Source: Cepaea nemoralis
Taxonomy: Eukaryota > Mollusca > Gastropoda > Stylommatophora > Helicidae
NCBI GenBank assembly: GCA_014155875.1
Contig: JACEFZ010011666.1
Coordinates: 145,001-209,000, forward strand
DNA: 64,000 nt
Direction of reading: 5' to 3'
Part shown: one piece after another, positions 3,471 to 63,613 of the stretch
How the letters are laid out: each line of letters begins with the position of its first letter
Numbering within the stretch: position 1 is the first letter of the stretch
The notes under the pieces: generated by a model
Told to the model about the DNA's origin: nothing
Seen by the model: only the letters and a program-made list of their open reading frames with translations
The model's database searches: none
Position numbers and translations under genes: made by a program

Positions 3471-4345
3471 TGCTATTGCTTTACCTATTCTATATTTAAC
3501 TTCATTAATACGCCTTCCATATTTTGTTATTAAAGCAACTTAATACGTACCAGCAACTTAATACGTACATCAATGCATGACTTGTTTCTGCACCATTCAA
3601 TAATGTATTTGGCAGTTGATGATGATGGTGATAATGTGATGTATATGATGAAGACTAACTTACAAACTGAACTAATTCAGCTGTATATGCGACATGTAGG
3701 TTGCTACCTTGGGTACGCATGTCTTCCCCCGGGTTCAGTCTACTATTCTAATGGCTGCAGACGAGATGACTGTGTTGGAATAAATAAAATCGAAACGGAG
3801 TTTCGGTTTTACAGTGAAAGTATGTCAGTGTTTATTTTCGTATACTACAACATCCACAATATCATCTTCATCACCACACGATAAACCAACTTGCCGTTGA
3901 TAATAATGTTTCCCTAACATAATATATCAGTTTATCTGCGTATACCATCGATACCATCATGTACCTTCTCTCTTTTTTTTTTTTTTAAATTAAAATTTTT
4001 TTTTTTTTTTTTACGTTTGTATTATTCTCCATACATTTTTTCGATGTTAAAGTCTGATCCTGTTTTTATCTTCTTATACTGCAGCCAAAATATTGACCTC
4101 CTCTTTTTTATATTTGTGTAAAGTCTTACTTGTGCCTAGCGTCTTTCAAATTATTTAGATTTCGTATTGTGGCTGTCCAAGTCATTTCCTTATTTAATAT
4201 CAGATGTATAAGCTTCAATAAGTTATTTGCTTGGTAACTAATCATACCGGATTCACATTTATATGTAAAACCTGGTTCAAGAAATATTATTTTTTTTTTT
4301 AAATTGTAATGTTGTGGCACTTTGCCGTCTTTACAGACGAAAGTA
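3471..4345 (+). repeat. Segmental duplication unit, copy A
   Basis: This unit recurs at about 8590-9790, 11420-12246 and 25290-25890. Shared parts in order are a T-rich stretch ending in CTTAATACRTA, the phrase around TATTTGRCA, a GAT run (short here, GATGATGATGG near 3620), the phrase AATTCAGCTGTATATG, the 120-bp exon, and a downstream intron block with AACATAATAT and GTCTTACTTGTG. Copies differ by many substitutions and by later insertions, so the duplications are not recent. Poly-T and poly-A tracts sit at 3970-4010. Confidence 0.8.
3700..3819 (+). CDS. Cysteine-rich module exon 1 (VWC-like), phase 1-1
   Basis: A 120-bp exon is inferred from an AG acceptor at 3698-3699, an open frame, and a strong donor (A|GTATGT) at 3820. 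It encodes the module G-C-YLGYA-C-x11-C-RRDD-C followed by about 16 residues. Both ends fall in phase 1, so it can be spliced to any other exon of this set without breaking the frame. The cysteine pattern C-x5-C-x11-C-x4-C with Gly in the second loop resembles half of a von Willebrand factor C or single-VWC domain, found in secreted and matrix proteins. That assignment is inference. The duplicates are at 8993, 11646 and 25585; more distant relatives are at 32297, 53253 and 63494. I saw no promoter, start or stop codon for the gene in this window. Confidence 0.75.
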
Positions 4346-4399
4346 TGTGGACTGGATCAAAATCTCCACCACACAATGCATATATTGTATTAAGAGATT

Positions 4400-4870
4400 A
4401 TGTGTAGCGAACGCAGCGTGATCCCTTTCTCGGTCTGCATTGTTTTCTCCAGAGGAAAGGCATAACCAATGTATTTAGAACAAGAAAGGCTGTAGATGCT
4501 GCCCAATCAGCACCACTCCTCCGTGGAACAGAAGGTGAATAACGGCCAAGCCCTCACATCCAGTTGATTTTGACTTAGAGGCGTTCAGCTTTATCCCTCA
4601 GATGAGAGCCACAGACCAAGTGTCTGGACCTGCCGCCGTTCTCTACCGTAGCACCGACACGTCATAAGTAGGATAATCCTGACCCTTTGCTCATTTACAC
4701 TTAGCATTACATTTGTCATCAGTTATCTAAGTAGGATCGTGTCATGTAAGGAACCTCGACTGATTTAATGAACCATTCGCAGTTTCACCGTGAGATGGGT
4801 GTATTAGCTCTAGAATTGCCACACGACGGACTATTTATGCACACGCAGGACAAGAGCAGCATCGCTCAGC
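4400..4870 (-). pseudogene. Chimeric ribosomal RNA-like pseudogene (28S 3' and 18S 5' pieces)
   Basis: On the minus strand, 4575-4600 matches the conserved 28S 3'-region phrase CTGAACGCCTCTAAGTCA. The following bases to about 4690 keep scattered 28S identity around TGTCTGGACCTGC. From about 4755 the sequence switches to 18S 5'-region phrases: CTGATTTAATGAACCATTCG and the block around TATTAGCTCTAGAATTGCC. The two 18S phrases are in the wrong relative order for a collinear gene, and mismatches are frequent. This is therefore a rearranged rDNA-derived remnant and not a working rRNA gene. Confidence 0.6.
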
Positions 4871-4994
4871 GCGCCCCTTAGGTACCCGATGATACATGGA
4901 AAACCACTGGACGCCTACCGACGAGCTTCAAACTACGCCAGGCAGTACTGACCGAAAAGTAATGCCAGCCTACTGACTGCAAGACCACTACTCC

Positions 4995-5166
4995 GAGAGA
5001 GAGAGAGAGAGAGAGAGAGAGAGAGAGAGAGAGAGAGAGAGAGAGAGAGAGAGAGAGAGAGAGAGAGAGAGAGAGGGAGAGCGAGCGAGCGAGAGAGAGA
5101 GAGTTAGAAAGAGAGAGAGAGAGAGAGAGAGAGAGAGAGAGAGAGAGAGAGAGAGAGAGAGAGAGA
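4995..5166. repeat. (GA)n microsatellite
   Basis: About 170 bp of GA repeat with a short interruption (GAGCGAGCGAGC near 5080, GTTAGAAA near 5103). It directly follows the rRNA-like remnant. Confidence 0.98.
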
Positions 5167-5269
5167 AGGACACTTATCTATATCTTAATCGAATAATCTT
5201 ATAAAAATTGCTTTTTCTTCTGCTCAAACCGTGACTTCGGATAAGCGTTGTGGTCATTAACAGACATCC

Positions 5270-61684: not shown

Positions 61685-62602
61685 TGTCGCTTGCAGTCCT
61701 CGGGGGGAAAGTGGTGCTTACAAGCACACCTTTCAATTATATTTGTCTAGGTTTTCCTCTGCTGGTGGACCTTTGTCTACACCCCCCTTATATTTTTAGT
61801 CTTTTAATCTCTCTCTCTCTCTCTCTCTCTCTCTCTCTCTCTCTCTCTCTCTCTCTCTCTCTCTCTCTCTCTCTCTCTTCAACAGACAATACCCCCCTTT
61901 CACTTTCCTTCATCACATACCTCCACTAACACAGGTTTCGAACAAAATGATAAGACATTTATTGCAGAAAAGTGTCAGTTGAGTGAGCAAGGTAGGTGTG
62001 TGAATATATGGGATGTGATCTATCTTGAAAGTGTGACAGAATATACGATAGTATCATCATCAGAGTTTGTCATCATTATATAGCCATTCAACCTCACAAA
62101 GCACATAACGTAGAATCTCTCACCCGGCTGTTGCTCTCTGACTGATGATGATTTTTCTTAAATCACTCTTCAGCCTAATGCTGTCGCAACTCTATACTAC
62201 GTTTACACACGAAAATCCCTATGTTAGCTTTTTATTCTATATATATATATATATATATATATATATATATATATATATATATATATATATATATAATCAC
62301 CTTATTTACTAATTCCGGCCTAAAGGAAAAGTGCGTGTCGACTTTACACAACCTAGACATAGTGATATATATTCAATTTTGGCACTCAATTAACTCCACA
62401 CCCGCCAATTGTAAAGGCAATCTTCAACTGGTTTGTAAAACAGTAAATTTAGTCAAAAGTTATTGGCTGGACTAAGTCACTTGTTTCGTTCTTAACCCTC
62501 AGCCTTTGTTCTCTTTCCGCGTTGATTGATCTCCATACATCAGTACTGATCACCGTCTTTAATAAAGACGATCTCCAGTTCCATCGTGTTTCTCCTTTAG
62601 AT
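61685..62602 (-). repeat. 5' LTR of Gmr1-like element 2, truncated
   Basis: Matches 54618-56376 but skips the stretch equivalent to about 55150-55840. It ends at TTAGAT, where (CATA)n begins. Contains (CT)n at 61807-61880 and (TA)n at 62239-62295. Confidence 0.9.
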
Positions 62603-63230
62603 CATACATGCATGCATACATACATACATACATACATACATACATACATACATACATACATACATACATACATACATACATACATACACACATACATACA
62701 TACATACATACATACATACATACATACATACATCCATCCATCCATCCATCCATACATACATACATACATACATACATACATACATACATACATACATACA
62801 TACATAAATACATACATACATACATACATACATACATACATACATACATACATACATACATACATACATACATACATACACATACATACATACATACATA
62901 CATACATACATACATACATACATACATCCATCCATACATACATACATACATACATACATACATACATACATACATACATACATACATACATACATACATA
63001 CATACATACATACATACATACATACATACATACATACATACATACATACATACATACATACATACATACATACATACATGCATGCATGCATGCATGCATG
63101 CATACATACATACATACATACATACATACATACATACATACATACATACATACATACATACATACATACATACATACATACATACATACATACATACATA
63201 CATACATACATACATACATATATACATACA
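62603..63230. repeat. (CATA)n array with CATC and CATG blocks
   Basis: About 630 bp; CATC at 62732-62750 and 62926-62936, CATG at 63077-63102. The long open frames on both strands are artefacts of a period-4 repeat. Confidence 0.98.
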
Positions 63231-63234
63231 TCTA

Positions 63235-63345
63235 TGTTGTTTTTCCCTATTCTGCTCTTAATGTCGCCCCTGAATCTTAAATCTGATGTTATAATTGCAC
63301 CCCGGTACTTAAATGAATCAATGTGATTAAGTTTTTCACATTATA
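63235..63345 (-). pseudogene. LINE thumb-domain scrap
   Basis: The minus strand reads KLNHIDSFKYRGAIITSDLR, then FRGDIKSRIGK, the YLG thumb segment after the RT of CFDP2-type LINEs. About 35 codons only. Confidence 0.7.
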
Positions 63346-63493
63346 CTGTTTTGTCAAAATTCACAACATGCAGTTATTGCTTGTCCTATTATGTTCTTTA
63401 TCTCACTGAAGCATGTAGAGTCTAAATGTTCATCGTGTTTGGTTTATGCGTCAGTTGTTATATCTGATAGCAGAGTAGGTTCCACTGTTGCAG

Positions 63494-63613
63494 GCTGCCG
63501 ATGGCGTGACCAATGTTATGATGTGGGAGCCTCCGTAGAAGTCAGCAGGTGTACAAACTACACGTGCACTAGAGCCAGTCTACATGACTCTGAGATGGAA
63601 GTAACGAACATTG
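63494..63613 (+). CDS. Cysteine-rich module exon 7, phase 1-1
   Basis: 120-bp exon with the cleanest splice sites of the set: acceptor TCCACTGTTGCAG and donor G|GTAGGT. It encodes G-C-RWRDQ-C-YDVGASVEVSR-C-TNYT-C-TRA and a tail ending EVTNIG. All four cysteines are at family spacing (x5, x11, x4). NYT inside the last loop is a glycosylation sequon. It is the last one in the window; the gene probably continues beyond 64000. Confidence 0.8.

Follow-up and report, generated by a model that had tools for sequence, protein, structure and literature searches.

An array of four-cysteine module exons in the snail Cepaea nemoralis

The module exons and their arrangement

The window analysed here, a 64,000-nucleotide stretch of the Cepaea nemoralis genome assembly (bases 145001-209000 of contig JACEFZ010011666.1, hereafter C10801), holds seven exons of a common design, each coding for a small cysteine-rich module. 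A sequence-only reading had predicted seven open plus-strand exons of 117–123 bp with AG/GT borders and symmetrical phase, and all of them are found at the predicted positions: each is 117–123 nt long, preceded by AG and followed by GT, in phase 1 at both ends (phase 1-1), open, and with exactly four cysteines. The proposed motif, G-C-x5-C-x(10-11)-C-x4-C or a close variant, holds as well, since C-x5-C-x(10-11)-C-x4-C is present in six of the seven and the exon at 32297 is the variant CC-x19-C-x4-C. N-glycosylation sequons, anticipated in several modules, occur in three of the seven. The exons are listed below in window coordinates, with the module types A to D, which are labels coined in this analysis.

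3700..3819, plus strand: module exon, B type, phase 1-1, CYLGYACLPPGSVYYSNGCRRDDC...
8993..9112, plus strand: module exon, B type, phase 1-1 (AlphaFold2 model m5b39303b68e3)
11646..11765, plus strand: module exon, B type, phase 1-1, sequon NNT
25585..25704, plus strand: module exon, B type, phase 1-1
32297..32413, plus strand: module exon, C type (CC-x19-C-x4-C), phase 1-1, sequon NVT (AlphaFold2 model m717165f51d0f)
53253..53375, plus strand: module exon, D type, phase 1-1
63494..63613, plus strand: module exon, A type, phase 1-1, sequon NYT

For comparison with chance, we counted the acceptor sites followed by a phase-1 AG..GT exon that starts with C-x5-C-x(9-11)-C-x4-C, a pattern that leaves out the C-type variant at 32297. 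The window has six such sites on the plus strand and none on the minus strand, and 40 dinucleotide-preserving shuffles of the window have none; the whole contig has 23 on the plus strand and none on the minus strand. The module exons are almost certainly protein-coding.

The idea of a hidden gene in the window was right as to coding exons and underestimated its extent, the window being the middle of a 29-exon array. Both strands of the contig (320,472 bases, of which 15,000 read N) were scanned, and 29 intact module exons lie between contig bases 5,076 and 302,962 (about 298 kb), all on the plus strand and all phase 1-1. Their joined translation runs to 1,162 residues without a stop, the 28 joints included, and contains 116 cysteines, exactly four per exon, and 27 sequons. 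A thirtieth copy, near contig base 290,585, is decayed, with the first cysteine lost and a stop ahead of the donor. The B type has the spacing C-x5-C-x(10-12)-C-x4-C with a frequent PxGS motif (the B exon at contig base 10788 has x4 as its first gap), the C type has CC-x19-C-x4-C, and the A and D types are separate sequence families with different acceptor flanks. The order of the modules along the contig is A,B,B,B,B,D,B,B,C,D,B,B,B,B,B,B,C,D,A,A,B,C,D,B,B,C,D,B,B.

This order can be described as a repeated unit in which one to three modules of type D or A are followed by one to six of type B and usually by a C module. It would have arisen through the duplication both of individual exons and of units of several exons; longer runs would then have been copied to other contigs. 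Self-matching sequence makes up half of the contig. Because the phase is symmetrical, duplication, loss or skipping of an exon leaves the reading frame intact. The earlier view of symmetrical phase as a mark of tandem exon growth agrees with the duplications of exons and of longer segments seen here.

Constraint on the modules and their copies

Copies of the array were compared using 20 exons from contigs C22881 (13), C8605 (6) and C998 (1), whose best matches are 14 different C10801 exons. All 20 are open, with four cysteines and with AG and GT at the matching ends, and 18 of the 19 copies on C22881 and C8605 are collinear with C10801; the exception (L061) is without a clear C10801 counterpart, which may fall in DNA read as N. 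For the 18 ungapped pairs, the pooled synonymous divergence (ps) is 0.086 and the pooled nonsynonymous divergence (pn) 0.066, a pn/ps of 0.76. Of the 108.8 nonsynonymous changes, a single pair, L060, contributes 22.5; leaving this pair out lowers the ratio to about 0.66 by hand arithmetic. The distance between the flanks of the copy pairs is 0.097 (3,676 bases). Indel events number 35 in the flanks and four in the exons, all four of the latter in two gapped pairs that are both still in frame. Within the contig, 20 hand-chosen and non-independent module pairs give a pooled ps of 0.254 and pn of 0.238 (ratio 0.94), with single ratios of 0.32 to 4.28. Under drift from the B consensus with the observed number of changes, the probability that 13 exons all stay open would be about 2e-5, and that they stay open with four cysteines about 1e-20, exons being assumed independent. 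The rate and indel data thus indicate that the residues vary almost freely with frame, splice sites and cysteines held; as judged from these comparisons, selection holds those three features and most other residues are free to change.

The L060 exon, on C22881, matches the exon at contig base 132827 best, at 78% identity against 92.5% for the flanks, and its peptide resembles that of the exon at 113871; this perhaps points to gene conversion, or to the exchange of an exon, between modules.

The modules are numerous elsewhere in the genome. A search with the peptide of exon 8993 (E ≤ 1, 150 of 262 candidates scored) gave at least 150 matches, 150 of 150 stop-free, and one with the C-type peptide (E ≤ 0.01, 127 candidates scored) gave 60, again all stop-free; both counts are biased towards intact copies, because decayed copies score lower (stops were read through), and they take in paralogues and probable alleles or uncollapsed copies. 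Beyond the at least 150, there are perhaps several hundred module exons genome-wide. Short stretches sampled at matches on 20 contigs were open in all 20 cases, and in 18 the exon is complete, with four cysteines and both splice sites at the usual places. In the remaining two, L041 has four cysteines and lacks the usual GT, with a GT nine bases further on, and L049, of the C type, has both splice sites and three cysteines. Exon 8993 itself has a 100% copy on C17110, and C24652 and C1150 yield an identical peptide. Uncollapsed alleles seem to be present in the assembly (C10801/C17110; C24652/C1150), and the true genome size may therefore fall well below 3.47 Gb.

A relic of modules that once were coding and now drift, intact-looking only because the copies are young, would account for a pn/ps near 1, for the repeat-rich surroundings with half of the contig self-matching, and for the one clearly decayed copy and the two imperfect ones among the 20 sampled. 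We nevertheless regard it as highly improbable: frame, splice sites and cysteines persist while the adjacent introns gain indels, and the genome matches are stop-free in 150 of 150 and 60 of 60 cases, though the search favours good matches.

The exons and their flanks differ in rate. Among 13 equal-length B exons, divergence of the exon exceeds that of the upstream flank in 63 of 78 pairs and that of the downstream flank in 58 of 78, the mean distances being 0.356 (exon), 0.280 (upstream) and 0.293 (downstream). Flanks beside the exon are more similar between copies than flanks further away, so that flank constraint and fast exon change may both contribute. B exons have GAT repeats upstream and complementary ATC repeats downstream (for example at window 8836-8942, 11546-11596 and 25406-25530), and a conserved CTAAC box lies some 45 bases upstream of them. 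Repeat runs of at least nine occur upstream of 9 and downstream of 10 of the 17 B exons on the contig, compared with 2.8% and 4.3% of 400 random sites, and a stem of at least 12 perfect pairs is found at 5 of the 17 versus 1.8% of random sites; since the exons are related, these counts are not independent. The complementary repeats could aid the splicing of long introns or exon duplication.

Such flanks would also suit an array of alternative exons, from which each mRNA takes one or a few modules, the array serving as a store of variants. In Dscam, rows of same-phase variant exons code for immunoglobulin halves, and the likeness to the snail array lies in the many same-phase variant exons in a row. 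The shared phase 1-1, the similar lengths, the near intron flanks, which in most pairs differ less than the exons do, and the conserved B flank motifs, including the CTAAC box and the GAT/ATC repeats, are all in keeping with this arrangement; the ordered way in which the module types are mixed speaks against it, and we consider it improbable.

Predicted fold and comparison with known systems

The model of exon 8993 is all beta, with a mean predicted local distance difference test score (pLDDT) of 89.7, and that of exon 32297 (mean pLDDT 91.4) is like both fibronectin type I fingers and the first half (SD1) of the VWC domain. Among the structural matches listed for the predicted module models, fibronectin type I fingers are at the top, and the models have the fold of about 40 residues of such a finger as well as the VWC first-half fold. 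Foldseek alone gave no match with E < 1 for a B-type model. According to these models, the module is similar both to a fibronectin type I finger and to VWC in its first half.

Sequence searches returned little. The hidden Markov model search against VWC and SVWC that had been proposed for the seven peptides gave no match: in Pfam, the seven window exons hit no family up to E 10, VWC, SVWC and fibronectin type I included, and nor did a 12-module chain, while 28 modules hit just four unrelated families, one member each, at E 0.08-0.17. The PDB sequence search found nothing for the 12-module chain, and for the profile one match at E 3.4, which is not meaningful. Profile comparison with VWC is weak and in register (probability 3.8 and 4.7%). 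A loose pattern for the second half of VWC matched once on the plus strand and seven times on the minus strand of the contig, none convincingly. Searches for protein homologues (738 and 2,206 candidates) gave none with E ≤ 1, in a database whose gastropod content was not checked, and no description of such an array was met in a literature search of titles and the starts of abstracts. The earlier description of the modules as VWC-like half-domains therefore stands for the predicted fold, like that of the VWC first half, and for the weak in-register profile, but not for membership of the VWC or SVWC family.

The likeness to the VWC domains of collagen IIA, CCN3 and NELL2 is thus to their first half in the predicted fold. 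VWC (PF00093) has about ten cysteines in two halves, a CCxxC end and C-x2-C-x-C spacing, whereas the snail modules have four cysteines and C-x4-C, with no second half seen. SVWC proteins (PF15430) are small and secreted and share the C-x4-C spacing; the snail modules are half-domains in long arrays. In fibronectin, the type I finger has four cysteines, with one module per phase 1-1 exon, and its disulfides pair C1-C3 and C2-C4. The fingers of fibronectin, factor XII and tPA have in common with the snail module about 40 residues and a beta fold, and also the four cysteines and the single phase 1-1 exon; the cysteine spacing differs and there is no significant sequence match.

In gene layout, a comparison that implies no toxicity of the snail modules, conotoxin genes are similar in that conserved, repeat-bearing intron ends stand beside variable coding parts. 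According to PMC3862624, their intron ends are conserved, with simple repeats, and genes of nine conotoxin superfamilies have two or three exons, three corresponding roughly to signal, pro-region and mature part. The snail exons found are all internal and phase 1-1, unlike that series of signal and pro-region exons before a terminal mature exon.

Gene ends and the proposed product

We favour, with moderate confidence, a reading in which the 29 modules are spliced in order into one long, rapidly diversifying extracellular protein of finger or VWC-first-half modules, each a scaffold with a variable surface. The single-exon modules, spread over about 298 kb, would be joined in sequence into one chain, and the four cysteines of each could close two disulfides. 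With frame, splice sites and cysteines constrained and the other residues free, the module would be a stable scaffold with a variable surface. The product would act outside the cell, and the module type, the sequons and the rate pattern suggest a multivalent binding or matrix protein, for instance of mucus, egg coat, haemolymph or body-surface recognition.

Weighing against this reading, besides the observations that suit a relic, are the missing ends of the gene, as scans of the contig found neither first nor last exons. Of the ATG-hydrophobic signal exon candidates on the contig, 26 with GTRAGN donors and 27 with wider donors, none is convincing, and the GTRAGN candidates with copies were just low-complexity stretches and one pair within a repeat. 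Secretion, as first proposed, thus lacks a convincing signal exon among the candidates scanned on the contig. A conserved hydrophobic ATG between a C and a D exon (contig 178156) was rejected: it is part of a dispersed repeat that occurs on both strands, and single-base gaps distinguish its two copies.

Outside the modules, 683 conserved phase 1-1 intervals were found, and the 61 inspected by eye (the longest with donor-like sites) were mostly reverse-transcriptase-like pieces or other repeats, along with the fourth C exon, since included among the modules. The leftover candidates with at least four cysteines, 38 on the minus strand and 32 on the plus strand, are therefore taken as background. 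Two AG-to-stop frames were rejected as showing no coding signature: one of 48 residues after D, noncoding-like with 7.5 synonymous versus 25.5 other changes, and one of 44 residues after A, with 1 versus 7. In the surroundings of the C-to-D step and of the A modules, as far as they align between two copies, no further frame has a coding signature, and module-to-module splicing is therefore favoured.

These results also bear on whether the contig carries several shorter secreted-protein genes, each D/A, B, C unit having its own missed signal and terminal exon. The D/A-B(n)-C order does recur several times, first and last exons are short and easily overlooked, and conserved frames running from an AG to a stop follow one D pair (up to 48 residues) and one A pair (44 residues). 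These frames, however, have no coding signature, and the aligned C-to-D segments (about 2 kb of the shorter copy's 3.2 kb) are without a conserved terminal or signal-like frame, the sole conserved hydrophobic ATG being the one inside the dispersed repeat. Separate genes therefore seem unlikely to us, though they keep some weight.

More speculatively, and with low confidence, the genome-wide store of modules, in long arrays with a fixed disulfide frame and nearly unconstrained surfaces, would be a recognition repertoire (immune, mate or self), its diversity arising as exons are duplicated, lost and perhaps alternatively spliced without a change of frame. Exons of 40 codons scattered over hundreds of kb of repeat-rich DNA are easily missed by domain searches and by annotation based on open reading frames. 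If expressed as one chain, the array would code for an unusually long disulfide-module protein and would be a clean case of symmetrical-phase exon multiplication and of surface diversification on a kept scaffold.

Several further features were noted. About 133 bases 3' of two A exons (contig 209915-210050 and 221260-221392) are 94.7% identical in a surrounding block at 83%, with no coding signature in the frames counted and no further copy on the contig. The picture of modules amid wholly decayed DNA was too strong, as the window also has two pairs of young-looking direct repeats. Those at 41529-42150 and 49959-50581 are 99.2% identical over 623 bases and 8.43 kb apart; they are probably the terminal repeats of a young retroelement, which lies within the intron that separates exon 32297 from exon 53253. 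The identical 277-base repeats at 13265-13541 and 19883-20159, 6.6 kb apart, are probably the terminal repeats of a second element, likewise young. Clusters of ordinary VWC domains lie elsewhere in the genome, on contigs C8263 and C9410. The mitochondrial contig C25837 (L036) carries, in an order typical of heterobranch gastropods, tRNA-Ile, nad2 (identified by eye), tRNA-Lys, cox1 (identified by Pfam too) and then six tRNA-Val calls in a 245-base tandem repeat.
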